From Sialis fuliginosa (Eukaryota > Arthropoda > Insecta > Megaloptera > Sialidae), in the NCBI GenBank assembly GCA_961205875.1, contig OY540820.1, forward strand, positions 930,001 to 994,000: a stretch of DNA of 64,000 nucleotides, in the 5' to 3' direction. The translations under genes and the position numbers were made by a program. Below are positions 10,510 to 48,554 of this stretch, piece by piece. The notes under the pieces were generated by a model, which saw only the letters and a program-made list of their open reading frames with translations, made no database searches and was not told the DNA's origin. The first letter of the stretch is position 1. Every line of letters begins with the position of its first letter.

Positions 10510-10539
10510 CTAGCGCGCTGGACCCGGTGTTACCCGGGT
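10510..10539 (-). mobile_element. Helitron 3' terminus (minus strand)
   Basis: Read on the minus strand, a hairpin with stem ACCCGG/CCGGGT (10,522-10,539) is followed by 8 bases and then CTAG at the terminus. The next host base is T, the arrangement expected for a Helitron 3' end. The preceding 120 bases match the ends at 48,283 and 48,554, so this is a family terminus. It is on the same strand as the Rep/helicase gene at 19.0-24.0 kb and could be its true 3' end. Confidence 0.8.
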
Positions 10540-11601
10540 ATATACATTTAATCTGTAAAGTAGAGATTCCGCAATATTTTTTTCAGTTCAATTATTCCTA
10601 TATTGGTATCAAGTAATTTCCAAGTTGACTATTTTCAAAATTTTATTTTAAAATAAAATACACACCTAATTATTTGAATTGAAAAAAAAAAAACATTACA
10701 TTAGAACGATGCACGATTCGTACTGTCAAAACCCCGTCAACCACTGCAAAATTAAATGAAACAGAGTGTAAATATGGTTTCTCTAGTTATATAGTTGTAT
10801 CATGGTTTCTCAAGAACTTAATGTTAGCAACTGTAGCCTCTATAACATGAAACTCTCTTCAAGTCGAGAAACCTCTTTATTTTGAATTATAGAGGTTTTA
10901 CTGTCTCTACTTGGATTTCCATTGCTGAAACTTAAAGAAAGACTTAACGAATAGGTCGAAATAATACAAATACAAATAAAAAAATAATACAAATACAAAT
11001 AACAAACATACAAATACCTTTATAAACGATTTTCAATAATTATCAACCTTAAAATCTTATTTGTGGATTGAATGGTTTGATGAAATGCCATCCGATATCT
11101 TCTGTTTCTATTTCAAATTAATAAATTACACAGACCTGTCCTACAGCTATAGTATAGAATTATTATTTTCAGTTTTTCTTTAAGATAAAACATAATAAAT
11201 CTAAAAAAAAGCAAAAAATATCATGTTATATTACATTTAACAATTTTTAATAAATGTATAATTAAAAAATCAAATAATACATACCATAATACATAAATTC
11301 ATATATAATCGAATGTCAATAATTTTAATTCATTCCATCATTATATTAACAGCTGTTTTGAAACACTTTAAATTTTAATACGAAATAACAATTACATTTA
11401 AAATTCACCAAACAATTCCCTAAAATAATGGTTTCAAATCAAAAGTATATCATAACCTGTCTGACGATAATTATGTGATAATTTTCACATTTTTCACAAT
11501 TTTCAAAACACAAACATTTTCAGACATACAAAATTACAAACAGGTGACGTGGGTGACGCTTCATTCAAGTTTCAAACCAATAATTTTTCAAACTATATAT
11601 A
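10540..11601. other. AT-rich stretch, nothing recognised
   Basis: Only short simple-sequence pieces (ACAAATACAAATA) were seen. If the Helitron spans 10.5-24 kb, this is its 3' subterminal region. Confidence 0.3.
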
Positions 11602-12342
11602 TTAAAATAGTATCGAAATTGATAATGATTTTGAGTTGATACATAAATTGCAAAAGTGTGTATGAATATTATTATTATTATAAACAACAATTTCAATTTC
11701 CATATTACAAAACACGTTGCGTATAATTTTTTCTACTCTATTCCATTCTAGTAAATCTAGTCCACATCCAATTTTAGGCATTGCTAACTTTTTTACATTG
11801 TTATCAACACAATACGATTTCATTTCACGTAGAGATCTTTCTAAAGAGCGATAAGTTGGTTTTTCGTAACTGTATTTTTTTGTTACTAAGTAATAGATAA
11901 ATCTATTAGAATCGTTCAACACTGCAATTTTCCCTTTTTTTATACTGAGACAAGAGCTCTTCAACTCGATGGAATGTTTTTCTAAAATAACAAAATTAAT
12001 TATTAGTAATTACTACCAAGGTACGTAAGACCACAAAACGTAAATTTGGGTGCCTGTTTAAATTGTGTTACCTAGAATCTGTCTATAGTTATTTATGTAT
12101 TTTATTATTTATTTAATTTGAAGTTCAGTTGTCAGAAAATTTTTTATAGTGGAAGAGTTAGAAAAAAATACATTTCAAAGGAGGGTGCATATTTTTCTAA
12201 TGAAAAACACACTCCATATGCCTGGACTATTTAAATATTTTATCTGAATGTAACTGCAATTCCAGCACTCATCCGAAAATCTTCTGCAACGCAATGTGCC
12301 AGAGAATATTCTTTTGATGCTGTAAATAAGTCGCCGTTTTTT
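11602..12342 (-). pseudogene. TARG1/OARD1-like macrodomain ADP-ribose hydrolase, broken
   Basis: This family removes ADP-ribose from acidic residues and deacylates O-acyl-ADP-ribose. The first piece (12,342-12,245) encodes GDLF followed by [18 protein letters not shown], the ADP-ribose-binding start of the fold. The second piece (11,981-11,602) encodes a YYLVTKK motif and KIGCGLDLLEW, which hold the Lys and Asp used by TARG1. Joining after TTCA to the acceptor TTTTAG gives exactly the family spacing. However, the base pair after TTCA is GA, not GT, so no canonical donor exists there, and reading through meets a stop. The first 10-15 residues, with the start codon, were not found. The C-terminus has about 20 extra residues. 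It lies on the Rep/helicase strand, so it could be host or Helitron cargo. Family assignment is sure; functionality is doubtful. Confidence 0.8.
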
Positions 12343-12811
12343 CTTTAAATTTAAATAGCTCATTAATTTTGTCGTGAATCTGCATTTCAACTATGTCTCT
12401 TATTGGTATTTAAATTTTTTTCTCTGGACTTACTTCGTTGTCTATTTATGTCATCAGTTTTGTCAGTAATTGAATTAATTTAGTAAACATGATTACTTGA
12501 TCCAAACATTGAAAAGAAATGACAATTTATAAATTGCTGACAAAGAAATTTACTGAAAAATTATTCGAATTATAATAAAATAAATTTATTTTTAACCATA
12601 GTTAATATTATATTTTCATGTGATCAGAAGATATTTTAGTAAAATAATTAGTGGCAACACCACAGAACATTAAAGATATGAATCTTATTTATGTTTGAAA
12701 ATTGAATTGACAATTTCAAATAAAATAATCTAGTTTGTTTTTCTTTATAAAATAGAACAAAAGAAATTTGTTGATATAAAAAAATTGAAAGTGATTTTAG
12801 TATAAAAAAAA

Positions 12812-13615
12812 ATGGATATTGAAAAGGATGTGTAAGTATTTTTTTTATATTCACGAGTATTTATATTATACAAATAGGTTTTTTTTTAAAAATATATACT
12901 TTCCAGAATTCAAAAAGGCGAAATGATCGAGGATACTCCAAAAGAGGAGCCTCCAAAAAAAGGAGAGCTGTAAGTATATTTTATAATATTAGGGTATTGT
13001 TTTTATATACAGGGTATTTGATACGGCTATACAAATATTTTAAAATATTTATAAAAAAGAGCATTTTTTTTTAAATCATTTCTGCTAGGTTTTAAAATTA
13101 TTTTTAAAGAATCAATTTTTTTACAATAATATACTTTTTCAAATATTAAAATGCAGTCATATTTTTGGTAGGATCTTCACAAAGTACCACAAAAATTTAC
13201 TAAAATGACCTAAATTATTTCCAAATGGCCCGTTCTAATTTTCATTAAATTATTTGTATTGACGTAGCAAAAACCCTGAATAAATAAATATTGTATAAAT
13301 AATTTTTTTTTTTTTTCAGAGAAAAACCCATTGAAAACACCAAGTGAGTATATAATTAAACATATAAAAAAAATATAATTATTTAAATTGTATTAAAAGC
13401 CATTCATTCATTTCATCTATAATTTTTTATTTTACAGAAAACAACAAAACAAAATTTATTGGGCGGCTTACCGCGAGGCCATGAAAAAAATAAAAAACAA
13501 AAAAATAAATTTCAAAGGGCCTCGCGGTAAGCGTGGAAATACGAAAAATAGAGGTTACGGAGGAAACCGAGGAAACAGAGGAGGAGGGCATGTGTACAAC
13601 ATGACATTTTATTAA
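12812..13615 (+). CDS. Four-exon gene for a 94-residue basic RG-rich protein
   Basis: Exons are 12,812-12,831, 12,907-12,969, 13,320-13,343 and 13,438-13,615. All three introns have canonical donors (GTAAGT, GTAAGT, GTGAGT) and pyrimidine-AG acceptors, and all are phase 2, so the 63- and 24-base middle exons are symmetric. The start is the ATG at 12,812. The stop TAA is followed by AATAAA at 13,630. The protein starts MDIEKDVIQKGEM, has an acidic/proline stretch (EDTPKEEPPKK), a lysine-rich middle (MKKIKNKK) and a Gly-Arg tail (GNRGNRGGG), ending VYNMTFY. There is no signal peptide or membrane segment, which suggests a nuclear or RNA-binding role by inference only. I do not recognise the family. 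The exon layout recalls aphid bicycle genes, but the secretion signal and C-Y-C motif are missing. Confidence 0.7.
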
Positions 13616-14743
13616 TTTTGTTTTTTTTTAATAAATTTATTTTTTTACATTATAAAACATTGTTAATAATTTTTTTCTTAAAATTTATTTCAGGTAGTCA
13701 ATTTTTATTGTAAATGTAATACGATCGTAGAGATTAGAAAAACAGTTGTTATTTTAATTAAATGAAATATTTACTATATTGGTGTGTCTTAAGCCTTGTT
13801 TACACCAGGATACTTATATCACAACATTTATGTCTAACGTCTGACACTAAATAGCATAATATACTGTTTACACCAAAAAGAATTGCGACATAAATACTTT
13901 GATACTTGTACCATGAAATAATAATAGTACGCTCGAGGTGTTTGACAGCTATCAGTTGCAAAGGAATTATCTACAATCAGCATATCCACTGAAATGTCAC
14001 TGTATTCGCTGTTCCTTGCATATATTTTACATTGTCTAGATAAATCTGATAAATGGGACATAATTTTCATTTACGAGATAAAAACATAGCATTTGATACA
14101 CCTACGTAGCTAATTTAGCAATAATATAACAATAAATTATTTAAATTTAATTATATAGGTAGGTACAGAGTGCACAGTTACTTACTTTAAAATATATTTC
14201 AGGCAAATATGTTTTACATAGAGATGAATCAGAAGAAATTTTTCTCTTTGAAAATATATCTTGACACGGTTTTGGAATATCAGATGTGCGATTTTTTTAA
14301 TCGTACAACGCAAATTTTATTATAAACTCATCAGAATATTAGTCTCAAAATTTATAGTAGATTGTCGAATCACTGAAGATGTACTTGATTTTTTTTAAAT
14401 GTACATGACCTACATACATTTTTTTAAACGTTATGTGGCATCAGATGAAATCTATAATAAAAGTTTACAATAATAGAATTTATTCGAATAAGTAGGTATA
14501 ATGTATCTAAATTTATTTGTCATTAATCGATTGCTATATAATTTCCAAATTACCGTAACACATTTCAAAACAGAGTAGGTATTATCTGAAGCTCTGTGTA
14601 ATACTTTATACATTTCTTATTTTGGCTTTTTATTAAAACATTTTAAAAATGAACATTGAACCGTGTATTACATTTTCCATTTGTACAATATTTATAATAC
14701 ATGTTCTAACCTAACTTATACGTGTGTAAAAATTCAACAATTA
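13616..14743. other. Gene-free stretch with one hAT-end fragment
   Basis: At 13,728-13,785 the sequence matches the left end of the hAT element at 42,881 (TAGAGATT, then AGTTGTTATTTTAA). The 78-codon minus ORF at 13,834-14,070 has no recognisable domain and no splice context, so it is not called. Confidence 0.45.
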
Positions 14744-15075
14744 TGCCCGGTATTATAAAGGACCTAACAAAATTTGTTAGCTAGCAATTACATTCAAATG
14801 GGGTATTAATACTGTACTAGTATCTATGGATTAGTTATGGAATTTAGAGCAGTGACACTTCAATTAATTGTAACACAGTTGGCATCTTTGACCGTACAAA
14901 ATAATTTTCATAACATCACCACTGTTTTAATACCGTTTGTATTTACCTTCAACGCGTGCGCGAAACTTGTCAAAGTCATCAACAAACTCCAAAAGAACTG
15001 TCATATATGTTTGATACCTCAGTTGAAAGTGTTTGTTAGCTAACAAATTTGTTAGGTCCTTTATGATACCGGACA
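14744..15075. mobile_element. PIF/Harbinger-type MITE, TTA target duplication
   Basis: The terminal repeats run from TGCCCGGTATTATAAAGGAC to a complementary end closing CCGGACA. The 3-bp duplication TTA (14,741-14,743 and 15,076-15,078) fits the TWA target of this superfamily. A sister copy lies at 40,471-40,765. The ORF at 14,837-15,043 is internal filler also present in the sister copy. Confidence 0.85.
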
Positions 15076-17002
15076 TTACAATTACATATTTGAAATTTTA
15101 GATGCGTTCTGAAATCATTCTTTTGCCCCCCCCCCCCCCCCCACCCCCTTCTTCGCCGCGATCGTGTAAATGTACTCTATACAAAATAAAAATTATAAAA
15201 TTAATAATAAAGAAAATTGTAATAAAATATTGTATTTAAAATAAATTAACATTAAAAAATTTACATAATTATAAAAATTGTTTATTTATATTTAGCTATT
15301 TGTTTGTGCTAAATTATTTAATAAATGAATTTTAAAATACATATTGTTTGTTTTTGTATCATTTGTTCAAAAAAGTTGTTAAATTTATTTTCACAAAAGA
15401 AATGCAGATTGTACACATCGACAAATACAGTTTAAAATTACATGTAACAGATAGTCAATTGGTATTTGGAATTGGCTCGCAAGAATTAATATAGCAGGCG
15501 TCATTATTTGAACAATTTGTTGTGTTTAAAAGTACAACAATAAAACTGTTCAAAAAGTTTATATGTGAATAAATAAATCACTTGAATGTATTTCGCATAA
15601 TATAATTAATAGAATGCATGTTTATTTCCAGCCATTTTTTCATAAATTTTCTGAAAACTTGAAATAAAGCGATGAAACTTGTTGCTTGCTTTTTACAAAG
15701 TCTTATTAAATAACATAAAACTTATTAACACATCAAACGTTGTATACATTTGCTTTCTCAATAAAGTTTAGTCTATGTTTGATCACTTGAAAAACAAATT
15801 CAGTACCATAATCTTGACTGATGATGTTCTGTATTGTATAACCAGAATATATTGTATATAATACGTCGAAACTTGAAGCCATTAATTTGTTTAAAAAAAT
15901 CTTCTTCGATTTATTTTTATTATAAAATGTAACGAATATTGTCACGCCAGACAGAATACCAATGGGCATATCATTTCATGAAATTTTAAATTGTATTTTT
16001 GAAATATGTACTATTTTTTCATACATAGGTATATTTAATGACACTAACTTTTTGGAACATATGATGACTTTCAACAATTATTATTATTATTTACGATTAA
16101 ACATTAAATTATTAAAATTAATCAACAAAGTATTATTTTACAATAAATAATATTTCCAGTGCGATTGATGTATTATGTTTTCTTTGGATGTTAGCAATTT
16201 ATTTCCTACACAGATCATATCCATAGAAAACATAATACAATTTAGTACCCTGTATTTTTGTAAAAAAAAATTAAATTAAAATGGTATAGTTTCAGAATAT
16301 TGTGTTTTAATAAACTGTAATGTGTATAAAATTTACATTTATATAATTTTTAGAAAAATTGAAATAAATTTTAATATTGAAAAGAAAACACCTGAATTAT
16401 ATACCACTTTAAAAAAAAAAACAATAAATTTGAACACATTTAAAATAATTTTGTTATAAAAGAATTGTTTGAAATTTATCAAGTAATTGTTCTTCGTTTT
16501 TGGTTCTACACAAGTATTGTTAACCACTTCCTATATCCATTTAGTTGTAAAGTTTTTCTCTTGTAACTTATTTGTTTCGTATGTTAGAGCCTGCAGATGG
16601 AATCTTCTTTTCTATATAAGAGTTTGAAAAATATATATGAAAACAAATATTAAATTTATGATAAGTATATGTACATACAATTTATTTAATTCTTTGGAAA
16701 TACTGCATTGGTATATATAATATTTCATTATCATTCTTCGTGTTCTATATATTTTCTTTATTCTCCTGTATATCCCCTTTTTATACCATGGATCAAAACT
16801 TATGTTTTTCGTCCCATAATGGCTATAATTTGAATAAATAAAGATATTATATAGATTTAAAAATATATGAATATAATAAAAATATATAATTTACCTATTC
16901 AATTGCACATAGGTATATACTCCATAAAACTATATGAAAATGGATAAATAAATCAGTATGAATTATTTTGTATAAAATTTATAAAAAAAAATGAAATACA
17001 TT
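15076..17002. other. AT-rich stretch, one unrecognised small ORF
   Basis: There is a 17-base C run at 15,126-15,142. The minus-strand ORF 15,733-15,969 (78 codons, ATG to stop) has a less repetitive composition than its surroundings (for example GTEFVFQVIKHRLNF) but no domain, exon signals or homologue that I recognise. Overlapping ORFs are random. Confidence 0.35.
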
Positions 17003-17640
17003 ATTTATGAAATACATTACCACAATTTACAGTAATCGCCCAAATTATACTCAACCGACATATTATCCTTTAATTGTATTGATTCCAAAAAAGTGTTTCA
17101 ATTTCTGTCTTGTGCAATAAAAAAAAGTTTGTTATATAAATATTAAGTATTATAAAATACTTGATATGAATTAAAAATAAAATACTTTTTTTGTTGAAAT
17201 ATGTGTACACGTCTTTCCTAATCAACAACTAACTTGCGTACATCGGTATACGTTTTGATGTTTAATTTGATGAATTAATTCACTTGTTTTCATTTAATTG
17301 AAATTAATTCTATAATAAAAAATAAATACATTAATTTATGAAATACATTACCACAATTTACAGTAATCGCCCAAATTATACTCAACCGGCATATTATCCT
17401 TTAATTGTATTGATTCAAAAAGTGTTTCAATTTCTGTCTTGTACAATAAAAAAAAGTTTGTTATATAAATATTAGGTATTACAAAATACTTGATATGAAT
17501 TAAAAAATATATACTTTTTTTGTTGTCTTTCCCAATCAACTATCTTGCGTACATTGGTATACGTTTTGATGTTTAATTTGATGAATTAATTCACTTGTTT
17601 TCATTTAATTGAAGTTAATTCTGTAATAATTAAAAAAAAC
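17003..17640. repeat. Two-copy tandem duplication, about 331-bp offset
   Basis: Copy 1 runs from about 17,003 to 17,333 and copy 2 from 17,334 to about 17,640, both starting ATTTATGAAATACATTACC. On the minus strand each has an exon-like block (CAAG acceptor, then TEIETLFESIQ in copy 2, then a GTAAAT donor). Copy 1 has two extra bases in this block, which break the frame, so coding status is unproven. Confidence 0.7.
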
Positions 17641-19022
17641 AATTTTAATATATGAAAAATATAAATACTAAGAGATATCCAAATATTTACCTGCATAATT
17701 TGATCTCCAGTATTTTATATAAGCATTCGCTTATAGATGAATTTTTATTTATTTTAATATATTACATAAATGTAGCAAATAATACTGATATTGTGAAAAC
17801 TTCACAATCAATTATATAAAATTCACAATCAATTATTTATGACATACATAATGCACAATATGTTGTAAAGAAAAACAATATTAAAATTTTCATTGGTTAA
17901 TACATATAGATATGTTAATTAAAAGTATCAATAATATCCTAATTTATTATGATACGACTGCATGTTTGTACATTTGTACAAGATATACATAGATTGATTA
18001 CACATGCAGTTAACGAAATTTTTTAATATTGAAATTGTCAATGATTAATATATTCTTAACATTGATAAGAATTATATAAATATGCATATAAAATGCTACT
18101 GCATATAAATATGCAGTTAAAGACAATTAAAGTGCTATTATATTTTTGAAGGCGATAGCGGTACATTTTATCAAAACTTATATATTTTTTTCAAATCTGT
18201 ACAAAATTCATTATTAAATACCTACATAGCCTTCAAAATCAGTAATACAGAGTAGCAACCATAGAAACTCAATTTTTTTGTTGTATTTATAAAAACTGCG
18301 AAAGGCGTAATGTTCTATTATTTACAAGTCGATTTCACATCGTATATAAGCGAACGGGATTCTGACCACAGAATAATAAATATAGTTCTGACAAAATATT
18401 AGGTATTTCAAATGATGGTAAAAATACATAGTTATGTTATGTTTATTTTAGTAAGACAAAAATATACACCTGTAATATAAAAAAAAGTTCAAAAATTATT
18501 TTTCAGTTTTACAGTTTCTATGATCAGTACTTATTGTATGTACTGTAATGATTCTAAAAAATCATTGTGTTTGGTCACTTGACTTTATATGTAATATTAT
18601 TACCATATAGGGGCAAAAAAATACACTTAATTACATTCAAAGTTTCAGATATAATACATAATCTCGATTTGAATTTACAAAATCTTGTTTCATAAAAAAT
18701 TCGATCTAAATCATAATTTACAGAGTACTATACCATTATGCTGTCTATAAATTTTGTCTGTCTGTGTAGATACTAAATTGCTATAAAATCAATAGACAAC
18801 ATAACAGTTGTCAATTGCACTGGAATATTACATCACATATTGATTTTGATCTAGAACAAATTCTTTATAAATATCGAGCACGTCTTCTGATTTAATAAAA
18901 TAAAACCTACATTCATTTTGTAGTACAAATATAGCATAAATAATATTAAATATAAAGTAATAATTATAAATTGTAAATTTCTGTTTGCTTTCTTTCATAA
19001 TAAAAATTTTATAAGTTGTTAA
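17641..19022. other. AT-rich 3' flank of the Rep/helicase gene
   Basis: This is downstream of the minus-strand Rep/helicase stop codon. No ORF, repeat or RNA gene was recognised. Confidence 0.35.
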
Positions 19023-22000
19023 TTAGCCAAGTGCTTCATGATATACTACATTTGCAGTTTTACCTTCCGGTGCTAATATCACAAGATTACTTGGTTTACT
19101 GACCCTCGAGCATGCTACATAAAATTGTCCGTGCGAGAAACAATCCTGTCTTACATCAATGCCAGCCATTTGTAAAGATTGACCCTGGGATTTATTGATG
19201 GTCATTGCAAAACATAATTTAAGAGGGTATTGCAACCTTTTAAATTCAAAAATATAATCGGAAGGCACAATAGGGATCCGTGGTATAAAAACAGTTTCAC
19301 CTTCTGCACAACCGGTGAAAATTGTAGCCTCGATTACATTTTGTCGGAGAGCTTTTACTTGAAGTCTTGTACCGTTGCAAAGTTTTGGCGGATTTAAATT
19401 TCTCAATAACATTACCGGTGTACCAACTTTTAAAGTCAGACGGTGAGCAGGCATTCCAGGTGGATTTAACGTGTTGAGAAATTCAACGGGATAGTTTACT
19501 ATCTCGTCGTTGTTCACCACCGTATCAATTGAGTTATACACCATTTCTTGAGCATCGAATCTTTTTAATAACATGTCATTTATTTCTGCTGCTGTATCAT
19601 TCTTTGGTGTTAAAATAGCTCTTTCACGAAGCCAAGATATTGGTTTGTCATTTAAAAATCTGATATCTGGATAGATTTCAGATATTAGACATTCAATAGA
19701 ACTTACAATTGTACATAAGTTTTCAGGGATATTGATTTTACCGTAAGTTTCATGTAAACGACCATCTCCAATTTTCAACAATAAGTCTGCAAATTCAGCT
19801 GCATTGCTATCAGCTTTCATTTGAACTCTCATGTTTGTTGAAAGAGACAATTTTTCAATTTTGGGCCATAAGTAGGATGCTTTTAAACTGGCGTTTATTT
19901 CATCAGCACGAGTGCCTCTAGAGATGACAGGTAGAGTTTGTCTGAAATCTCCGGCAAACATAACCGTTATTCCTCCCATCAATTCGTTATTGCTCCGAAT
20001 ATCTTTCAGTGTTCTGCTAAGCGCCTCTATGCCGGCTTTATGAGACATCGAACACTCATCCCACACGATAAGTTGGCAATCTTTCAGCACTTGTGCAATG
20101 GCACTTTGCTTGGAAATATTACACACTGCATTTTCAATACGACTCAAGTTCAAAGGTAATTTGAACGCTGCATGCGCAGTTCTACCACCTTCTAACAATG
20201 TGGCAGCAATTCCTGATGAAGCGACTCCGATTGCGATTTTTCGTTCACTTCTCACCTTTGCCATCAATAAATTGATTAGGTATGTTTTGCCCGTACCTCC
20301 TGGCGCATCTAAAAAGAATACACTTCCGGTATTCTTGTTAATACTGTCCAAAATTTTACAGTAAACATTTCTTTGATCTTCTGTGAGTCGAGTTTCATTA
20401 TTATCAACGGTTTTTAATAATGTGTCAACATCGTAATTAATCTCTCTGATATAGGCCCTATTTTCTATAACCTGATTGGAACGATTAGGTTCAGGTAAGC
20501 CAAAATTTTTTAAGTACTGGCCACCCAAAGAAAGTATCAAGTCTTCTAACATAATCAAAGTTTTGTTATAAATCACTTCCTTCTCTGTGATATTTATGTC
20601 AGGCATATCATTTTGCAAACGTCTTAGTATGTCTTCTGAAAAGCTGTCCTTATATTTTTCCCATAAAATAAGTGGATCAGAAATTTGACAGAAGACCAAC
20701 ATTATAGCAAATAATTCCCTTAACTTGAAAGGTGACTCAGATATAGTGGCTTCTTCTAATGTTCTGTCCCACTGAATATCATCTTCTAGTAAGCCAAGTG
20801 CTTTACAGGCTAACTGAAAAGTAGAATGGACAACACCATTGACGGTTTTGAGACTTAGAAATGATGTCGGTCCACGTACTTCATGCAACAACAAACGAAG
20901 ATGGTAACATTCAGAATTGTTTGGGTGCACCGTGTAAACTCTGCCAAGAGCATGATCTTTTTTGATGCCAACATAACCTTCAACATTTTTTCCTTGTTTT
21001 CTTCGGTTAAATTTATTCTTATTCCAGACATAATAGGATGGAACTTCATGATACAAAAGAGTTCTGGCAAAATCATCTACCTTGCACAATTCAAAAAATG
21101 CTGTAAGCGTAGTTTTCGGAGGGTTATTTACCTTTTCTACTAAATTGTTTGCAGTAAAATATATGCGCTGTCCATTTTCTAAGTGAACTGATAGATGTAT
21201 TATAGAAGGAAACCTCTCATGAATTGAAAAACTGAACATTCGCCAAATAGCTTCAGAACTGCTAATATATCTTCCTGTTTGGAAAATTTTAACTTCATCA
21301 ATATCATTTTCTAGTGCAAATGTAGCCTGATCACTACCTTTATTTACATATTTGCAAATGTATTTTATAGATTTCACAGAATTACAGTATTCAACATTTA
21401 CATGAGAATTGAAAATACGACTTAGGACAGGATTATACGGCACCACCCAGCGGTTGTCAAGTTCCACAATACCACTTGATCTATTAAATTTCACAGTAAA
21501 ACCGCCGTCAGCTGGAGACCTTCGTCGGTACTTGGGGTAGCCATCGTCGCCTGTCTGAGTTTCACTGATTAGCGGTTTCGGGAATCTTTTAGAACATTTT
21601 TTTTCTTTAGACATACACGGTGAATTCAGGTTAATATTACCGCACGGTCCGTGAATCATGTTATTTTTTATTATGTCGTGTAGAATAGGATCTTCATCGG
21701 GGCTAGGAATTTCAGCGCTGATAACATCGTCAATCTTGTTTGGAGTGATTCTGTCATACAACCATAGTAAAATATGTACGTGTGGGAGACCTCTTTTTTG
21801 CCATTCAACTGAGTACATGTAGCACCTTGTACTCCCAAACAGTTGACCTTTCGTTAATATATTGATGAATGTTTTTATTTTAAGGTGAAAAACACGACAT
21901 ACAATATCAGGACGGTCATGTGATTTTTGACCGGGTAGTAATGCATCAATAATATCACTCCATTTAGGATTACAAGTGAATGTTATAAACAAATCTGGCC

Positions 22001-24005
22001 TACCGTAGTGACGTACATAGGTCATGGCGTCTTGTGTTCGTTCGTGCATATAACGTGGACCACCAGTGAATGACGATGGTAGAATTACTACTTGACCCAA
22101 TTCTGTTACGTTTGCATCAGTTTTTTTAACTGCATCTTGGAGGTGGATGTAATTTTCAGCCCTTAACTTCATTTGATTATATCTTATGAAATTTAACCTT
22201 TCTGTTTCGATTTTTGCATACATATCAACTACAAACTGATTGAATAAACTTCGATACCAGAGTAGATGATTACGCTGTCCTTCTCTGACCATTATGCGAA
22301 ATGAATAGAAATTTGCTGCAGAGACATTTTTAGGAAGCGGTTGTTTTGTGATGACATCTACTTGTGACACTGATATCGAATATCCATCTTCACCTCGACA
22401 AAACATAAGTGGGTATTGTAGCGCATCATAAGACCTATGAATTTCATTGATTTTTTGAAGACTATTATCTCTGCTATGCAATACAATATCTCTTTTTTCA
22501 AATGTTTGACCCACTATCAAAATCGCCACTTCATTTGCAGCGGGTTCATTGAAACGACCTCTATGAGCACCTGGAGGTTTCCTATCAGCGTGAATTATCA
22601 CCTGAAATTGTTTATCATCCTTGGGAACGCTTTCGATCGCAGACTTTAAATCTTTCACATAATTATTACAGCTGTGCAACATCATCTGTAACTGAGAAAT
22701 TAGTACGGGCCTGACGTCGTTAAAATTTGCGCACCTTATACTTGTTTCTCTGTCATCATCACCGACAAAGTAAATCTGTAGAAACTTAGGTTCTTCATGC
22801 AATGCCGGCAGCAAACTTCCCACCAAGTGATATACTTGTCCTTGAACTTTAAAGGTAGGCATGTAATTTCCTTCTATAATTCGTTTTGCTCCAAAGGATG
22901 TCATTTGAAACGAACTGTTGTATTTTCTAATTAAATTAAGGAAATGTTCAGATTCCGGCAGTTCTCCAAATACAAGACTGTTTAATGGTTCTGGAAGCTC
23001 CTCAAAAGACGGAAGATCAATTTTACCATTGCAGCAACACATCCCAGGAGTTTCGTCTTTCCACTTAAGAGCTTTACACCACTTACAGACAACGCTCATA
23101 GATCCTAATTGGACAGTTTTGTCTAACTCATAAGTAACGTCTGCATTATAATCGAATCCAGAATTTGCTTTTTGGGTCCAAGCACGTTTTCTGCGTTCTG
23201 CTCTTTTTTCGTGAGATGGGTCATATCGAACAACTGCATCTCTATTCACTTGTGGATTATTCTTTGTGTATTTATCAACTGCATCTCTGTTCACTTGTGG
23301 ATTATTCTTTGTGTATTTATCAACTGCATCTCTGTGTGCTTGTGGATTTTTGCTAGTAAACTTTACTTGAGCATCCTTTAGTTGTTTTTTTCTAGATGTT
23401 TGTGAAAATATTGCACGACGTTTAGTAGGTAAATTTCTTTTCTCATTTTTTTTTTCTTCAACATCGACAGTAATTTTATTTAAATAAACTACTGGCATCA
23501 TCATCAATTTAGGATCTTCCTGCAAAAATGGATTAGAATTTTCTTGCATAAAAGGATGAAGCGGTTCATAAACATCAAAATGCCCGCTGTTTAAAGAACC
23601 ACTGAACCGAAGTTTCTTTACTGGATTGTTATCTTCTCCAAAATTGTAGTACAAGTGACGATCCCGATAAACATCGAATCGGTAAGCAAAAATTTCGGTA
23701 CATGCAATTAACTCACTCGATGTTCCAAATGTAGTGGTTTTAAGCATGTCATCACTGTAATGCTCTTTCGTAACATAATTATTACCACTTCCATCATCTG
23801 TATACATTTTGAACCGTTCCCAATTATTATTTACATGGGATACAATAGAAGATCGGATTTCGTAAGCTTGAAGAATATTTCCATGGATCAAATAAGACAG
23901 TGAGTAAAACATACATGATCCATCTCCGGGCATTTCTACTACTTGATGTGGTGATGGCACTCCGTTTATGGTAATTAATTCAATTGCCATTATTAATATA
24001 TACAA
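19023..24005 (-). CDS. Helitron replication initiator-helicase with N-terminal OTU protease
   Basis: This is the rolling-circle transposition protein, nicking and unwinding DNA in the nucleus. It is 1,660 residues with no frameshift. Residues about 15-150 form an OTU cysteine-protease domain (GDGSCMF with Cys31; GHFDVY with His142). Residues about 220-265 carry three 15-residue repeats (NPQVNRDAVDKYTKN type). CKWC at 307-310 and a CCC cluster at 323-325 look zinc-binding. The Helitron Rep domain (about 565-900) has FITFTCNP, the HUH motif PHVH at 741-744 and the two tyrosines in KYICKYVNK (882, 886). The PIF1-like helicase (about 1,205-1,650) has Walker A APGGTGKT, Walker B WDECS, AGDFRQTLP and the final FYVACSRV. 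Translation may start at the sixth codon (MAIELITI) rather than the first Met. All catalytic motifs are present, so it is probably recent and possibly autonomous. Confidence 0.95.
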   Translation of the reverse strand: MYILIMAIELITINGVPSPHQVVEMPGDGSCMFYSLSYLIHGNILQAYEIRSSIVSHVNNNWERFKMYTDDGSGNNYVTKEHYSDDMLKTTTFGTSSELIACTEIFAYRFDVYRDRHLYYNFGEDNNPVKKLRFSGSLNSGHFDVYEPLHPFMQENSNPFLQEDPKLMMMPVVYLNKITVDVEEKKNEKRNLPTKRRAIFSQTSRKKQLKDAQVKFTSKNPQAHRDAVDKYTKNNPQVNRDAVDKYTKNNPQVNRDAVVRYDPSHEKRAERRKRAWTQKANSGFDYNADVTYELDKTVQLGSMSVVCKWCKALKWKDETPGMCCCNGKIDLPSFEELPEPLNSLVFGELPESEHFLNLIRKYNSSFQMTSFGAKRIIEGNYMPTFKVQGQVYHLVGSLLPALHEEPKFLQIYFVGDDDRETSIRCANFNDVRPVLISQLQMMLHSCNNYVKDLKSAIESVPKDDKQFQVIIHADRKPPGAHRGRFNEPAANEVAILIVGQTFEKRDIVLHSRDNSLQKINEIHRSYDALQYPLMFCRGEDGYSISVSQVDVITKQPLPKNVSAANFYSFRIMVREGQRNHLLWYRSLFNQFVVDMYAKIETERLNFIRYNQMKLRAENYIHLQDAVKKTDANVTELGQVVILPSSFTGGPRYMHERTQDAMTYVRHYGRPDLFITFTCNPKWSDIIDALLPGQKSHDRPDIVCRVFHLKIKTFINILTKGQLFGSTRCYMYSVEWQKRGLPHVHILLWLYDRITPNKIDDVISAEIPSPDEDPILHDIIKNNMIHGPCGNINLNSPCMSKEKKCSKRFPKPLISETQTGDDGYPKYRRRSPADGGFTVKFNRSSGIVELDNRWVVPYNPVLSRIFNSHVNVEYCNSVKSIKYICKYVNKGSDQATFALENDIDEVKIFQTGRYISSSEAIWRMFSFSIHERFPSIIHLSVHLENGQRIYFTANNLVEKVNNPPKTTLTAFFELCKVDDFARTLLYHEVPSYYVWNKNKFNRRKQGKNVEGYVGIKKDHALGRVYTVHPNNSECYHLRLLLHEVRGPTSFLSLKTVNGVVHSTFQLACKALGLLEDDIQWDRTLEEATISESPFKLRELFAIMLVFCQISDPLILWEKYKDSFSEDILRRLQNDMPDINITEKEVIYNKTLIMLEDLILSLGGQYLKNFGLPEPNRSNQVIENRAYIREINYDVDTLLKTVDNNETRLTEDQRNVYCKILDSINKNTGSVFFLDAPGGTGKTYLINLLMAKVRSERKIAIGVASSGIAATLLEGGRTAHAAFKLPLNLSRIENAVCNISKQSAIAQVLKDCQLIVWDECSMSHKAGIEALSRTLKDIRSNNELMGGITVMFAGDFRQTLPVISRGTRADEINASLKASYLWPKIEKLSLSTNMRVQMKADSNAAEFADLLLKIGDGRLHETYGKINIPENLCTIVSSIECLISEIYPDIRFLNDKPISWLRERAILTPKNDTAAEINDMLLKRFDAQEMVYNSIDTVVNNDEIVNYPVEFLNTLNPPGMPAHRLTLKVGTPVMLLRNLNPPKLCNGTRLQVKALRQNVIEATIFTGCAEGETVFIPRIPIVPSDYIFEFKRLQYPLKLCFAMTINKSQGQSLQMAGIDVRQDCFSHGQFYVACSRVSKPSNLVILAPEGKTANVVYHEALG
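23222..23346 (-). repeat. 45-bp in-frame tandem repeats inside the Rep/helicase gene
   Basis: Three units encode the 15-residue repeat between the OTU domain and the zinc-binding motif. Two units are nearly identical at the DNA level, pointing to recent expansion by slippage or unequal exchange. Confidence 0.85.
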
Positions 24006-25789
24006 TTATGTATTATACAAAAAGTAGGTTACAATATTAGAATATTAAATAGAATATCAATTATAAATAGAATTAGATTAGATTAATATCACACTTATCT
24101 TATCTAAATATCAATTATTTATAATATGTTTTTATTTGTTTTGTTTTTATTTGTTTATTATTTTGATATTTTAATAGATGGCAATGAAAAAATTTATTTT
24201 CAATTTTTTATCTGTCAAAAAATTATTAAATTAAAACATTATAATCACATAATTCATTTTTTATTTTCAAAACTAATAAATAATTTCAAAAATTATATAA
24301 ATCAAATATTATGTCATTTATTAAGTCCAAAAATTCAATTAACAATATTGTCACATATTTATATACAAATTTAAAACATAAACATACAATCTCGTATTGC
24401 AGATTGTCAATGGGGGCGGTTTCGATACAACCACAAATGTTTAAGTAACAGATTAATTTTACATTAATTAGCTATCTTTTATAATATAGTACTTGCCTAT
24501 TTATTATTATATTTGGTCTTAATGGTTCCATTATTGTCTATATAGTCCTGTTTGAGAACGTAGTGTTTAAAAATTGTATGGACGTGGAGCGTCATTCTGT
24601 ACTGGTACCAAATTATTTGTAAATCAATGGTTCAAACAGCCTGTTTCTTTGAAATTGTAATACATATGCATAACATATCGATCGAAATAATTGCAAAAAT
24701 CATATAACAGCCATAAAAACCTACAGAATAAAATTACTTTTATAATGATAAAATTATGTACTTATATGATTAAAAATAACATTTTATGGATATTAGATTG
24801 ATATTGGATATTGATTTTTCTGTTTATCATCTATCAATGCCTCATATAAATATATTAATAACTCTGAAATTATGTATTACGTACGTGCATTATGTATTAC
24901 GTACCTAGGTATAACTTTTTAAATTATTTATTATATTACCATTTCTTCTAAATTTAATTAAAAACCTTGTATTTGTACCGTTGTTCCGGAGTTTAATCAA
25001 GATTTTTAACACCCGTTTTCTGCCTTCTTATAAAATGTATGTATAGATCGACAAATTACAAAACGTGTTTTCAAACATTGACAGCTGTTTTTAAAATGCA
25101 ACAAACATATTATATTTTTTCAAATTTAGTTACATTTTTTTTTATCTATACGTATACAAATTTGAACTGTATTTGAAATATATATTTTAACAATTACTTG
25201 TATCAATTGATTTTTTTTGGTATTTGTAATTTGTCTTAAAGCCTATTTTATTTTGTATTTTCTACATAATTATTTTTTACAAAATGAACAAATACCTAAA
25301 TTATATATTTTTAATTTTTAACAGGAAATTACATTAACAAACCTATTGTATGTTTTTTAGACATACAAAAATTTGAATTGCATTGGTGATTGGTGTATAT
25401 TAACAATTAACATTATTAATTCAATCGTTTACATGCTTTGGTATTTACGGCATTTGTATTAAATATTAGCTACATATTTAAAATTAATAGAAAATATCAC
25501 TAACGTTAATTATAATCTGAAACTATTTTGACATTTTAAATTTTACTAACTTTGTCTATTTAATCGTGTTTATAACAGTTACAATTGCTTTACAATATTT
25601 TTATAGATACTTTATCTTGTATTTCTAATGTATTTAAAGCATAAAATTAAAAATGGCGACCTGTCAAATTTTTGTCAATAGTCCAAAAAAAAATTGTTTC
25701 CATAACAATGACATTTGAAATTAATTTAGTAGATGAGTTAAAATAGATTAGATGTAACTTTGGGGCAATATTTTCACACCGTTAACATA
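24006..25789. other. AT-rich 5' flank of the Rep/helicase gene
   Basis: The Helitron 5' end (TC on the minus strand) should lie here or further right, but I could not place it because no second copy of this end is in the window. Promoter elements were not identified. The 24,126-24,374 ORF is AT-rich and not called. Confidence 0.3.
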
Positions 25790-26165
25790 TCTTTTTCAAA
25801 AATCAGACACGGGTTCATGGTTGTCAATTAACCAAAGTATTTAAAAAAAATTAAAAAAATCTAATATCGGTTTTCGTTTTGATACTTTTTTACATCAAAA
25901 CTTTTTTTTTCCTTTTTTTTTCATTTTTTTTAAATCTGAAATTTGAACCTTACATTATATCGCCCAAGGAATATAAAAAAAATAATAAAAAAATTGTAGC
26001 TTTTTTTTTTGAAAAATTGGGGGCCCCTTGTCACCCCATTTATGAACTTTTTCAAAAAAGGCCCACTAGTTGTTATTTTTTACCCCCAAGGAATATATAT
26101 ACCAAATTTCAAGGTTCTCCGATGAGTGGAAATGGTCAAAAAAATGATTATCAGTGAGTGAGGAC
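25790..26165 (+). repeat. Interspersed repeat, inverted copy at 44,836-45,210
   Basis: The two copies share ATCAGACACGGGTTCATGG, TATCGCCCAAGGAATATA and GATGAGTGGAAATGGTC. The matching ORFs in both copies (92 and 81 codons) are low-complexity and differ by frameshifts, so no gene is called. Confidence 0.8.
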
Positions 26166-27330
26166 ACTTCGTTATATATAGTAGATAATAGTAATTATTT
26201 TAAATTTATTATTATGTCTGTACTGTCTACTTTAAATAAAATATTTATTAATTGCCTGAGGCGAAGCAGGTGACGGAAGAAACTAAATCGATTACAGCGC
26301 CGAGGGAACTTGTGGCGGGCTTATTTTTAACTGAAAATAGAAAGGTCAATATGATTAACCGCACTATAGTAATAAAGAATTATCTAAAATATATATTTAT
26401 ATATATTGCGATATTTTATTGAAATTATTTGTTTACATACTTCTCATTTCAGCCCGCCAAAGTCGTAAATGCTACTTAGCGCTGTCATCATGTACGCTGC
26501 GAATAGCCTCATTTAATTAATGCTACAATCACTTCGTAATTCCATTGTTTCTCCGTGGCTAAAAGTGAGTCTACAGATACTGGTAGATTAATATTGTGTC
26601 CTGTAGATGTCTTCAAGCAATATCATAGAGAGTACGTGAAAATTATATGTGGTGAAGATCTCTGATGGTTTTACTGTGTTACTCCTATTTTGTGTAAATG
26701 ACTTTTAAAGTTGCCATGATTGTATTGATTATATTTTAATCCTCACATAGCAGATAATGATCAGGATTGGAGATTGAACAATGACAATGTATACATATAG
26801 TCAATGTATGTATAGTGATCAGCATTCATTACGATAACATTTTCTGATTCATTTCTTTTGAAGATTAACGTTTCATATGGTTTCATCTTCTTCCTTTGTC
26901 TTTTAGAGTTACTTTTGCAGATACTGACAGTACCTTCCGACATTTTTTCGATCTATAATCTAAAATTTTAATTATGTTACTTATTGTATGTAGAGAAAAT
27001 TTAAATAAAACACATAAATTAGTGGCTACATACCTTAATTAAACAACAAAGTCTTATTTTACTTAAAATCGCTTAATATCACAAAATATTATAAAAAAAA
27101 CTATGAACTCTATCATATATTAATTTGATATACTATAGACTGACAGCAATTGAGCATGCGGTGTGACGTAGTTCCCTCTCTCCTGTCTCGATTTTGACAA
27201 CCTACTGAGGTAACCTATACATATAATAACCTTGACCTTGGTTTGACATTACGAGGTGGGACGGATCTGATTGGTTGTGTAAACATTTACTTTGCACCAA
27301 TCACGTACCAATAAACGAATATTTGAAATC
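26166..27330. other. Mostly gene-free; one weak exon candidate
   Basis: The minus-strand ORF at 26,761-26,943 begins MSEGTVSICKSNSKRQRKKM and has a possible GTAATG donor after about 37 codons. No partner exon or domain was recognised. At 27,199-27,240 there is a half-palindrome related to 9,861-9,924. Confidence 0.3.
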
Positions 27331-44620: not shown

Positions 44621-44835
44621 TTAAAATATCGGTATGGAGAACCATACATGACTTCCATGTTCTTTCTATCTTTTTAAATAATTTTTAAATATAATTTTTT
44701 TGCAAAAATATTTTATTAATATAATCTACTACTATGAATATAAATTTCGTAATACATAAAAAACATAAATACTTACGACGGTTACAGCAGTTATTGCCAT
44801 TTGTATCTACTATATATAACGAAGTGCCCTGACTG

Positions 44836-45210
44836 ACTCACAATCATTTTTTTGACCATTTCCACTCATCGGAGAAACTTGAAATTTGGTATATATATTC
44901 CTTGGGGGTAAAAAATAACAACTAGTGGGCCTTTTTTGAAAAAGTTTATAAATGGGGTAACAAGGGGCCCCCAATTTTTAAAAAAAAAAGTTAGAATTTT
45001 TTTATTATTTTTTTTATATTCCTTGGGCGATATAATGTAAGGTTCAAATTTCAGATTTAAAAAAAATGAAAAAAAAAGGAAAAAAAAAGTTTTGATGTAA
45101 AAAAGTATCAAAACGAAAACCGATATTAGATTTTTTTAATTTTTTTCAAATACTTTGGTTAATTGACAACCATGAACCCGTGTCTGATTTTTGAAAAAGA
45201 TATGTTAAAG
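44836..45210 (-). repeat. Inverted copy of the 25,790-26,165 repeat
   Basis: Nearly the same sequence in reverse orientation, including CTCATCGGAGAAACTTGAAA and AACCCGTGTCTGATTTTTG. The outer boundaries coincide with TATATATAACGAAGTG on both copies. Confidence 0.8.
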
Positions 45211-46326
45211 AGGAGAAAATAAACAAAATACGTTTACATATAATGCGCTTTAAGCATTTACTAAATTAATTGCAAATGTCGTAACTATGGATACATTATA
45301 TTTTATTGATTATTTTAAAAAATTTTAAATGTCAGTGGCCATTTAAAATTTTGAAGTGAACAATAAAATATAACAAAAAAGAAATATAAAGAACATAACG
45401 AATGAAAAAATATGCATAACTCTAATGTAATATATAATTAAAATTTTCATAAATAAATTTGACAAAAAAATTGAAGACAAATTACAGCATTCGAATGACT
45501 AACATTCGGCATAGCATAGGTAATACATTAAAATTTAAAACTTAAAGTTATTGATATATCAATATTTTTACCTACATAGGTATTTTAAATATCAGAAGTA
45601 TTTATTTAATTAACAATTAACATTGACGTAATTTTAAATGATATTTTTTTAATTGTTAGCATTTGTACATCTGTTAAGTATCCACATTTACTTATCTATG
45701 TATGCAAGCATCTGTGCATCTGTACCAATCTGTATATCATACATCTAAAATGTCAATGTGTATCTACTGTGCTCTAACTTTTAAATAGTTGAACTGATTT
45801 CAAATGATTTATTGCGAAATGTTCGAATACAGTGACAAAATTCGTTTAATTTACAAGAATATTTGATTTTAAAAAAGGTTAATCTTTTTTAATACGAAAT
45901 GTAGGTATATACTAATAAGTATATAGTTAATTGTAATTAATTGTAGAAAGGATGTACAACAAGAATGTATACAAGCTACTAATAATATATTTATATAGAA
46001 ACATTGATTTAATTTAGATGACTTTTTGAAAGACACGAGGAGAAAACCCGAAAATGAAATTATTTTTAATATTCATAAAATGTTATTTCAAATCATGTAA
46101 GTATATACAATATATTTAAAAGTCAGCATTATTCCATTATCATAAAAAAGTAATTATCATCTGTAGGCTTTCATGGCTGTTCATATATATGCACTTTGGT
46201 TTCCGAACTGATGTCAACGTTTAAATGTTTTTTTGTTGCCGTTGTCCATATGAACATATGTATGGCTTGATGTTTCGACTTCCATGTCGGAGTCTTTTTC
46301 ATATAAGACTAAAGGTATGTGTAATA
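45211..46326. other. AT-rich intron sequence, nothing recognised
   Basis: No repeat, ORF or RNA gene stood out by reading. Confidence 0.3.
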
Positions 46327-46388
46327 CAGGGTGACAGATTAAGAGTAACCCATTCTTAATTAATAATATCGAAATAAGTAATCACTTA

Positions 46389-47202
46389 GGGTGCGTTCCA
46401 GATGGCACTTGTAACGTTACGATCGTTGATTACATCGTTCCGTTTGGCGTTTGAAACGATCATGACGTGTCAAATATTCTGAATGATGCAATTGTAAGAA
46501 CCAATGAGTGTCAGTAAAAGCCAGAAATTAAACCGGATATATCTGATACAATTCCTTATACGTATATACCAAAGTTGTAAACAACGGAGTTAGCGGACAT
46601 CTGTCAGGAGAGTAAGTCCCTCCTTTTTTATAATTTAATTAAATATCCTTAAGATTCTTTGTTTACCGGGGTTCATATTTTTCATCGTTGAAATGATTTG
46701 CATTATTTTGTGATTGTTGCAGAAATCAAAATTTGCATTTTACAATAATTTCTACAATCAAAATTATTTCTATGCCGGATAGTTAAAATATTAAAAAAAA
46801 AACTATTATAATAATGTTTTTTAACTGTGATATTTTTCTTTGTTCTGTATTATTTTTAGTTTTGAACGAGTTAAAATTAAAAAAATTACCAAAAAAAAAC
46901 ATTTATTTTTTCAGTTAATACGATAAGGAGTTAAAACTAACAGGGAATTGCTTAAGAGGTTCACGTGCGTTACTTTCCTTCAATAACAATTTCACCGAAG
47001 AACCTCATTATGTTCTGATGAAGGAAGTATTCAGTCAAACATTTGGTGTTCCTAACCACCACCCGAAGAACCAGCCGTTCTTCAATAATGTTTACACATT
47101 CAGTGTTTTGGATAATCGTATATGGTTCAGGAACTTCCAGATACTGTCAGAAGACGGCGCTTTGGCTGAAATAGGGTCCAGATTCATCCCTGGAACGCAC
47201 CC
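46389..47202 (+). mobile_element. Harbinger-type non-autonomous element carrying host exon sequence
   Basis: It has 13-bp terminal repeats GGGTGCGTTCCAG / CTGGAACGCACCC and a TTA duplication on both sides (46,386-46,388 and 47,203-47,205). It is 814 bp. Most of the right third is BRX1 coding sequence that runs straight into the terminal repeat. Confidence 0.85.
46915..47189 (+). pseudogene. Captured BRX1 (ribosome biogenesis, Brix domain) gene fragment
   Basis: BRX1 acts in the nucleolus in 60S ribosomal subunit assembly. A pyrimidine-rich acceptor ending CAG (46,912-46,914) precedes the fragment. The translation GNCLRGSRALLSF, then KEVFSQTFGVPNHHPKNQPF, then LDNRIWFRNFQIL and AEIGSRF follows the middle of BRX1 in order. 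Near the start, the codons before ELKLTG need a one-base shift to stay in frame, so it is broken. The right side ends abruptly at the terminal repeat, and the N- and C-terminal parts of BRX1 are absent. This is a transduplicated fragment, not the cell's BRX1 gene. Confidence 0.85.
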
Positions 47203-47242
47203 TTAGTGGGCCTAATTTTAACTATCAAATCTTTTGTGAACC

Positions 47243-47587
47243 TTAAAGTTTTTGTAAAAATGGTGTTATGGCCGATTGATGGTTTTCGACAGACGAGTAA
47301 CACAAATTCTGTTTATTCCTCTCGCCAAGAAATTGGAAATGCGCTTCGTTGCTCATAATTATGATGTTAACAAAATTATTCCCTCTATCTAAAATCCAAC
47401 GACTGAAATCCAAACATGTGTTTAAGTCATTTGGAAAAAGTTTTTGAGCGTTTTGCCATTTGTATGGATGAAAGTGTAAATCTTTCTTCAAAATTAGATT
47501 TGATTGATTAAAATTTGCTTCAATCCTGTTTGTTTTTCTTACCCGATTCACTTCCAATTGTCTTGCGATTTGAAGCCACGGGAACAT
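47243..47587 (-). pseudogene. Tc1/mariner-superfamily transposase remnant
   Basis: The 114-codon ORF contains LILKKDLHFHPYKWQNAQKL, then NDLNTCLDFSRWILDR and SNEAHFQFLGERNKQN, in the order of Tc3-like insect transposases. The first catalytic Asp, normally in SDEAHF, is Asn here. The second Asp and third acidic residue are missing because the ORF ends early. It is therefore inactive. It sits inside the 46,327-47,724 element in the expected place. Confidence 0.7.
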
Positions 47588-47726
47588 TTAATTGTTGTCG
47601 GAACCACCACTGAGTCTGAATAATTTAATTGGTTAAGGTTTTACAGTTAAAATTAGGTTCACTAAGTGATTACTGTTTTCGATATCATTAATTAAAAATG
47701 GGTCACTCTTAATTTGTCATTCTTTA

Positions 47727-48159
47727 TATTAATTTGAAACATTTTTAATTCTATAGTTATGGCGTAAAAGTTATAAAACATTTTTTTACCGTTGTCGTAT
47801 CAAAAACAAATGTGATATAAGAATGTAATATATTTTTATACGACAAGAGTTTAAAACATATCAAACAAAAACACTACGCCAATCGTTCATACTTAGGATA
47901 CACCAACATGTCAAGGCGAAATTCAACATTAAATTAAAAATTTAATTATTTGTTGATCTGGAAATTATTATATTCCAATATTAGAAGTAAATTTTTTAAT
48001 GAGAGTTTCGAGTTATATAGGTTATAGTTAGGTGACATCGATAGAGAAACCATAGATGTGAACGGATTTTGATTTATCGAGATTCGACTTATAATAATGT
48101 GTGTATTTTTTAAAAATTAAATAATTTGGTGTGAATTTTGTTTTAAATTAAAATTTTGA
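47727..48159. other. AT-rich intron sequence
   Basis: This may include upstream parts of the non-autonomous Helitron copies ending at 48,283 and 48,554. No 5' end was found. Confidence 0.3.
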
Positions 48160-48283
48160 CAATAATTAACTTGGAAATTACTGTATTCCAATATAGATAT
48201 AATTGAACAGAAAAAAAATTAAATAATTTTTACTTTAGAGATTAAATTTATAAACCCGAGTAACACCGGGTCCAAAGCGTTAG
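48160..48283 (+). mobile_element. Helitron 3' end, degenerate
   Basis: The hairpin ACCCGAGTAACACCGGGT is followed by TCCAAAGCG-type spacing and TTAG (CTAG changed), then T. The upstream 100 bases match the 10,510 family. Confidence 0.7.
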
Positions 48284-48429
48284 TTATGTAAGGATTCCTT
48301 CATATTCATAAAGATACAAAATAAGTACATATCATGCTGCGGGGACATATCTTATAGAAAATCGGAAGGCTCTGTAACGCGGAGACTTTGTATGAACTTG
48401 ATTTCTGGGCTGTTATCCATGATATTGTA

Positions 48430-48554
48430 TTAAAAAACTTGAAAATTAATTGATTCCAATATAGAAATACTTTAATTGAAAAAAAATTATTACAGAATCT
48501 TTACATTACAGATTAAATGTATATACTCGAGTAACACCGGGTCCAGCGCGCTAG
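48430..48554 (+). mobile_element. Helitron 3' end, well preserved
   Basis: CGAGTAACACCGGGTCCAGC continues to GCGCTAG, then T. It matches the minus-strand end at 10,510 over about 120 bases and lies only 271 bp after the degenerate end, in the same direction. Confidence 0.8.

Follow-up and report, generated by a model that had tools for sequence, protein, structure and literature searches.

Gene fragments enclosed between the terminal inverted repeats (TIRs) of DNA transposons, known as Pack-TIRs, have been surveyed in animals, where 370 cases were reported in 55 of 100 species, four of them multicopy and none in the insect reference genomes (Tan et al. 2021, PMC8277862). The multicopy elements of reference genomes comprise three in frogs and one in alligator, in addition to Ssk-FB4 in flies (PMC8277862). 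The initial annotation of the present locus described its element as an animal counterpart of Pack-type elements best known in plants; the animal counterpart stands, whereas the second phrase is partly out of date in view of those 370 reports. The animal Pack-TIRs resemble our locus in bearing a gene fragment between DNA-transposon TIRs, a target-site duplication and a parent gene elsewhere, but they belong mostly to hAT and Tc/mariner and are reported to have multiplied by TIR transposition, whereas the 54 copies here appear to have been multiplied by a Helitron (PMC8277862). The C. elegans element Turmoil-1 (Sela et al. 2008, PMC2572040) is comparable to our locus as an animal Harbinger whose captured exon-intron-exon piece was judged free of purifying selection; it differs in that the capture lies inside long ITRs, a transposase is present, one complete copy and eight fragments are known, and the accessible account describes no nesting.

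Helitrons, whose marks are a 5' TC, a 3' CTRR and insertion between A and T (PMC6544945, PMC4778049), are known carriers of gene fragments as well, those of the silkworm holding 3,724 of them (PMC3789558). Insect Helitrons (silkworm, PMC3789558; Hel1, PMC6544945) agree with ours in the 5' TC, the 3' CTRR, the multiplication of host gene fragments and recent bursts, but they are reported to capture directly from host genes, whereas here the fragment is second-hand and lies inside two TIR elements. Helibat/Helraiser (PMC4778049), likened to our element by its marks alone, has the 5'-TC/CTAG-3' ends, the insertion between A and T and the Rep-helicase in common with it; it also bears a 3' palindrome, whose counterpart in the window copy is degenerate.

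The locus lies in a window of 64,000 nucleotides (bases 930001-994000 of contig C12), and the genome searched comprises 392 Mb in 20 contigs. Its features are collected in Table 1. In the history that we consider very probable, a TIR element took up a piece of BRX1, made a single insertion into a mariner-like element, and was spread with the rest of the stack to about fifty places by the enclosing Helitron. Each layer alone is of a known kind, and the chain, a Pack-TIR with its mariner-like element inside a Helitron and multiplied by it, is new as far as our searches go: among the open PubMed Central titles and abstract openings listed we found no earlier report of such a chain, nor of BRX1 together with transposable elements.

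Table 1. Coordinates (window positions) of the nested elements, the BRX1 piece and the second Helitron.
Feature	Position	Strand	Basis
Inner TIR element (Pack-type, Harbinger-like), 814 bp	46389..47202	+	13-bp perfect TIRs and TTA duplication
Left TTA target-site duplication	46386..46388	.	single TTA in uninterrupted mariner-like relatives L106, L107
Right TTA target-site duplication	47203..47205	.	read in the window
Captured 3' part of BRX1 intron 2, 145 of 184 bp, 3' splice site TTTTTTCAG	46764..46914	+	alignment to native locus L031
Captured BRX1 exon 3, truncated by the TIR (276 of 284 nt present), one nucleotide deleted close to the start	46915..47189	+	alignment to L031
Mariner-like TIR element, 581 bp once the insert and a TTA are subtracted	46327..47724	+	TIRs and TA on both sides
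Non-autonomous Helitron, 3,749 bp, unit of multiplication	44806..48554	+	copy similarity stops at the ends; flanks differ
Helitron 5' terminus (TC...)	44806..44824	+	exact match to autonomous Helitron 5' end
Helitron 3' terminus (CTAG)	48535..48554	+	exact match to autonomous Helitron 3' end
Second, decayed 3' end within the Helitron (GTTAG)	48264..48283	+	resembles the terminus with 3 mismatches
Autonomous Helitron, 15,676 bp, same ends	10510..26185	-	first 19 and last 20 bases identical to the BRX1 Helitron
Uninterrupted 1,660-aa ORF: Rep (PF14214) and PIF1 helicase (PF05970)	19023..24005	-	Pfam; OTU match just below cut-off

The right part of the insert encodes a Brix domain (Pfam PF04427, E 8.1e-19), and the best PDB match of the piece, 8fkp 'BRX1 homolog' (E 1.3e-35), which we take to be the human protein, was far ahead of the others listed. 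The native BRX1 gene lies on C13 and has four exons (93, 277, 284 and 354 nt), which together form a single uninterrupted frame. Alignment to this locus placed insert positions 376-801 (window 46764-47189) on intron 2 and exon 3 with 87.6% identity over 427 columns, the match ending on the base that directly precedes the right TIR. The initial annotation had given the 814-bp element its 13-bp inverted ends and TTA duplication with coordinates that proved exact to the base, and had described an intron-exon piece of BRX1 ending exactly at the terminal repeat; the alignment to the functional gene bears this out, in that part of intron 2 is indeed included and most of exon 3 abuts the TIR. A local BRX1 duplication without a transposon, which it had named as grounds for refutation, is rejected because the parent sits on another contig and, within 8.8 kb around it, only the captured stretch matches the insert. 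The marks of a Pack-TIR are present: a gene fragment between TIRs, a parent elsewhere (C13) and a TTA target-site duplication.

A search with the exon protein returned 57 rows at 55 distinct places, namely the native gene, L070 and 53 others. To these 53 we added L038, in which most of the exon is lost, and the resulting set of 54 insert copies is a lower bound since the genome DNA searches scored the best 40 candidates. L070 (C11:2850800-2853300) holds the BRX1 intron/exon piece with the deletion common to the family, followed by the Helitron 3' tail, and is without mariner-like or TIR ends. Another element with the TIR of the inner element at both ends, and at a different insertion site, is L035 (C14:779324-786779), 7.46 kb long, in which the TIRs sit inside 940-bp inverted arms that are 99% alike. 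Its cargo consists of intron 2 and exon 4 of BRX1 together with the beginning of the 3' UTR, as a forward copy and a broken reverse copy. Non-BRX1 DNA adjoining the BRX1 intron is common to L035 and the 814-bp form (insert positions 83 to about 150, and 237-376), and since these stretches stand beside the intron in both, the two would derive from one capture of at least intron 2 onwards. The structure that they share points to a loss, in the 814-bp form, of the right arm down to the 13-bp TIR. Besides exon 4 in both orientations, the region C14:778900-787200 holds the 5' part of a gene beginning MEQISLFDES...; its exons, tried as the start of a transposase, gave no Pfam match, and outside L035 they found only weak matches, of their second part, in the insert copies themselves.

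The divergence of the captured DNA from the native gene bears on the donor. Between native and captured exon 3 (11 copies), dS was 0.37-0.53, dN 0.04-0.07 and dN/dS 0.09-0.19, and these ratios count against our preferred reading because neutrality since capture would hardly yield values so low. They suggest that the donor may have been a functional gene already separate from native BRX1, as if both sides had long been under selection; such a donor, a diverged BRX1 from a lost paralogue or from another species by way of horizontal transfer rather than the host gene, is a possibility that we regard as unlikely. In exon 4 the forward arm of L035 agrees with it (pS 0.225, pN 0.039 against the native gene), but the reverse arm has a pN of 0.092 (pS 0.244). 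Intron 2 differs between the native gene and the four copies compared by only 11-13%, and this yardstick suggests plain descent from native BRX1: measured against it, non-synonymous change is roughly that of a neutral copy of the native gene, and the exon sites of the insert copies change faster than the non-coding ones. An extension of the foreign-donor reading, that the whole stack was built in another arthropod, brought in by the Helitron through horizontal transfer and then multiplied here, appears slightly less likely still; if true, a captured gene piece could act as a passport that reveals in which host a transposon had once resided.

A selected role of the BRX1 piece, be it as a coding exon or as an RNA acting on BRX1, is very unlikely. 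The low ratios just described would agree with it, as would the scarcity of stop codons, seen in 2 of the 56 exon-search rows other than the native gene, and the 3' splice site TTTTTTCAG, kept in 52 of the 54 copies. Against this, a 1-nt deletion near the start of exon 3 was observed in 55/55 rows (the 54 copies and L070), and since it is common to all rows the native reading phase is lost, the remaining 95-aa frame lying downstream of the deletion. Young copies would in any case retain that frame by descent. Exon changes among the 54 copies comprised 20 synonymous, 48 non-synonymous and one stop, a synonymous share that fits the non-coding spectrum (expected 0.253, p 0.28), so that changes within the family fit neutrality. 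The two arms of L035 differ from each other at a pS of 0.078 and a pN of 0.072, nearly the same, and have a premature stop in common. A protein-coding role finds no support in view of the common deletion, the neutral-looking changes and the similar pN and pS of the L035 arms, and the piece is most likely inert cargo without function, as judged from these substitution patterns. The captured exon 3 columns of the 54 inserts showed 69 changes where the non-coding spectrum predicted 42.5, about 1.6 times more.

The TIRs of the inner element read GGGTGCGTTCCAG at 46389-46401 and its reverse complement at 47190-47202. In the genome, the pattern TWA plus TIR occurred 96 times (48 per strand), against 0 for a reversed control pattern. 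The 3-bp TWA duplication that marks PIF/Harbinger is seen as TTA on both sides of the insert and as a single TTA in two empty relatives. The usual length of PIF/Harbinger TIRs is 25-50 bp according to the accessible text of one source (PMC2572040); here the TIR is 13 bp in the 814-bp form, and the same ends in the C14 relative sit in the 940-bp arms. What speaks for the label 'Harbinger-type' given earlier is the TTA duplication and the GGG ends; no transposase gene with these ends was found among the matches listed and in the one flank read. We call the inner element Harbinger-like by its ends and duplication, and its membership in Harbinger is putative. Specifically, no DDE_Tnp_4 transposase with the inner TIR ends was found among at least 146 matches (the best 150 of 189 candidates scored). 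Among the matches listed, and compared by eye, the one closest to a TIR was 3.6 kb away and the next about 24 kb; the former adjoins copy L037, in which the two TIRs belong together as a pair. The one flank read of a further match (L112) contained no inner-element TIR. Many of the DDE_Tnp_4 matches listed crowd in contig C14 at about 2-8 Mb. Two distant TIR matches led nowhere: L072, with about 70 bp between its ends, and L073, which adjoins a zinc-finger-like frame recognized by eye.

The layer around the insert carries the marks of Tc1/mariner, with ends alike over 66 bp at 86% and TA at 46325-46326 and 47725-47726. Its 114-aa open remnant presumably resembles insect Tc1/mariner transposases; in Pfam it gave nothing convincing (the best match, at E 0.023, fell short of the cut-off and was to an unrelated domain), and it had no PDB match, and for this reason the superfamily assignment is taken from the duplication and the TIRs. 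When the joined mariner-like flanks were used as query, 9 of the best 40 scored places (of 208 candidates) spanned the insert site unbroken. One of these nine (C14:1585369) adjoins copy L036 and is perhaps the opposite inverted end of that copy; of the other eight, two (L106, L107) were aligned and read CACTTAGTGGG with a single TTA, which is the empty site of the inner element.

The 54 insert copies examined sit at this same site. The boundary between insert and mariner-like DNA aligned in 54/54 copies on the left and in 53/54 on the right, the exception (L034) having a deletion in its right flank. The flanking triplets were TTA/TTA in 27 copies, TAA/TTA in 17 and otherwise in 10, where the ends have undergone small deletions or changes. 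Every letter of the right TIR is intact in 44 of the 54, so the inverted ends, whose absence from other copies the initial annotation would have taken as refuting its reading, are widely kept. In the 33/33 copies inspected (L001-L030, L032-L034), similarity extends beyond both mariner-like ends and reaches the Helitron termini. Since all copies occupy one mariner-like site, the inner element would have inserted once and a larger unit multiplied thereafter. That the inner element is itself an active multicopy Pack-TIR whose copies arose by cut-and-paste might seem indicated by its TIRs and TTA duplication and by L035 at a different site, but this is very improbable, given that the 54 copies share one site of one mariner-like element and common Helitron surroundings, and that among the TIR-bounded elements read only the C14 one lies elsewhere. 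Carriage of the insert to its copies by the mariner-like element, whose matching ends and TA duplication would allow it, is no more credible, since similarity in the 33 inspected copies continues past both its ends.

The likeness of the copies also supports multiplication of the Helitron with everything inside it. Mean pairwise divergence was 0.5-0.9%, with a maximum of 2.2%, whether taken over the arms of the Helitron, its mariner-like part or the insert (L001-L030, 28-30 of 30 usable per part), and the like divergence of all parts argues for a recent burst in which they moved as a single unit. The tree built from 52 of the 54 copies, from which L037 and L038 were dropped for their large deletions and in which midpoint rooting serves for drawing only, was ladder-like, with L036 deepest and 6 of 44 inner branches well supported. 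The two-layer nesting described in the initial annotation, an inner element within a Tc1/mariner element, holds, the outer of those two layers being TA-flanked and mariner-like; the surrounding Helitron and the 53 further insert copies had been overlooked.

In the window, the left end of the Helitron reads A followed by TCTACTATATATAACG, and the right end reads ...CACCGGGTCCAGCGCGCTAG followed by T. The 5' TC is seen in TCTACTATATATAA, which starts the window copy and 12/12 other copies fetched. A CTAG end, agreeing with CTRR, is present in 29 of the 31 copies read and absent from the stretch read in L015 and L023; directly after GCGCGCTAG, copy similarity on the right stops in 29/31, giving way to 27 different flanks over the next 20 bases. 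A T follows the CTAG directly in 29/29 copies, in keeping with Helitron insertion between A and T without a target-site duplication. An A precedes the TC in the window copy and in 8 of the 12 fetched copies, and the other four (L095, L097, L104, L105) are preceded by ...AGCAGCTAG, a CTAG end that looks like that of another Helitron family. These four may be head-to-tail Helitrons or joined elements moving together, and part of the spread may accordingly have moved joined elements. In 3 of the 31 copies a further 5' end, TCTACTATATA, begins directly after the right end, giving a head-to-tail array. The 3' palindrome, a further mark of Helitrons, has lost its stem in the window copy (-1.5 kcal/mol, with 182/200 shuffles folding as well); the autonomous copy retains a 6-bp stem (-6.3 kcal/mol, with 29/200 shuffles as good). 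None of the best 40 scored places (of 165 candidates) spans the joined site of a Helitron free of the mariner-like element, so the insertion of that element into the Helitron is argued from its TA duplication and TIRs. The 3' end of the BRX1 Helitron is present twice, 48168-48283 being 81% like 48436-48554 and both aligning to the single autonomous end; the arrangement suggests that the 3' end was once bypassed or that two ends were joined.

The same window holds an intact-looking autonomous partner with Rep and a PIF1-type helicase and the same ends, an A before it and a T after it; the BRX1 Helitron is 89% identical to it over the first 547 bp and 87% over the last 119 bp. From its predicted ORF, this Helitron is a natural candidate for the source of the enzyme in trans, or a copy of that source. 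A similar Helitron ORF of 1,675 aa lies on C9. The stretches HVHILLW and YICKYVNKG were seen by eye in the 1,660-aa ORF, and a 135-aa open frame inside the autonomous Helitron (11602-12009, minus strand) matches a Macro domain (PF01661, E 4.4e-6, above cut-off), perhaps another captured gene piece.

The preferred history, in which the Helitron multiplied the stack, can be outlined in three steps. A Harbinger-like TIR element would first have acquired a part of BRX1 comprising intron 2 at the least and, to judge from the C14 relative, also exon 4 and the 3' UTR, probably through template switching during repair; the structure shared by the two forms is observed, and the repair route is conjectural. 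This step would have ended with a short derivative whose exon 3 abuts a bare 13-bp right TIR. The derivative would then have inserted once, with a TTA duplication, into the mariner-like element, which lies with its own TA duplication in the non-autonomous Helitron, the order of the two insertions being presumed. Finally, rolling-circle copying, the mode expected from what is known of the family, would have carried the stack to about fifty places, while an autonomous Helitron sharing its ends, for instance that of the window, probably provided the enzyme in trans. Apart from the low dN/dS, the observations that count against this history are the two copies in which no CTAG end was read, the 5' ends that follow another Helitron's CTAG, the degenerate hairpin of the window copy, L070 with neither mariner-like nor TIR ends, and the fact that neither a Helitron free of the mariner-like element (best 40 of 165 candidates) nor, among the matches listed, a transposase with the inner TIR was found.

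Such a chain would amount to second-hand gene capture, in which the gene piece is taken by one type of transposon and multiplied by a different one. A survey that classifies captures by whichever terminal repeats lie closest would ascribe the copies to the wrong machinery, and one devoted to Helitron capture would list the BRX1 stack as a direct capture. Because this arthropod-like genome has a multicopy Pack-TIR cargo, and the window that contains it also has a candidate helper Helitron that looks intact, the amplification step becomes testable. As a minor observation on the assembly, which we take to be that of an arthropod, CCTAA arrays stood at three of the four contig starts read, the fourth being N; TTAGG telomeres are usual in arthropods.
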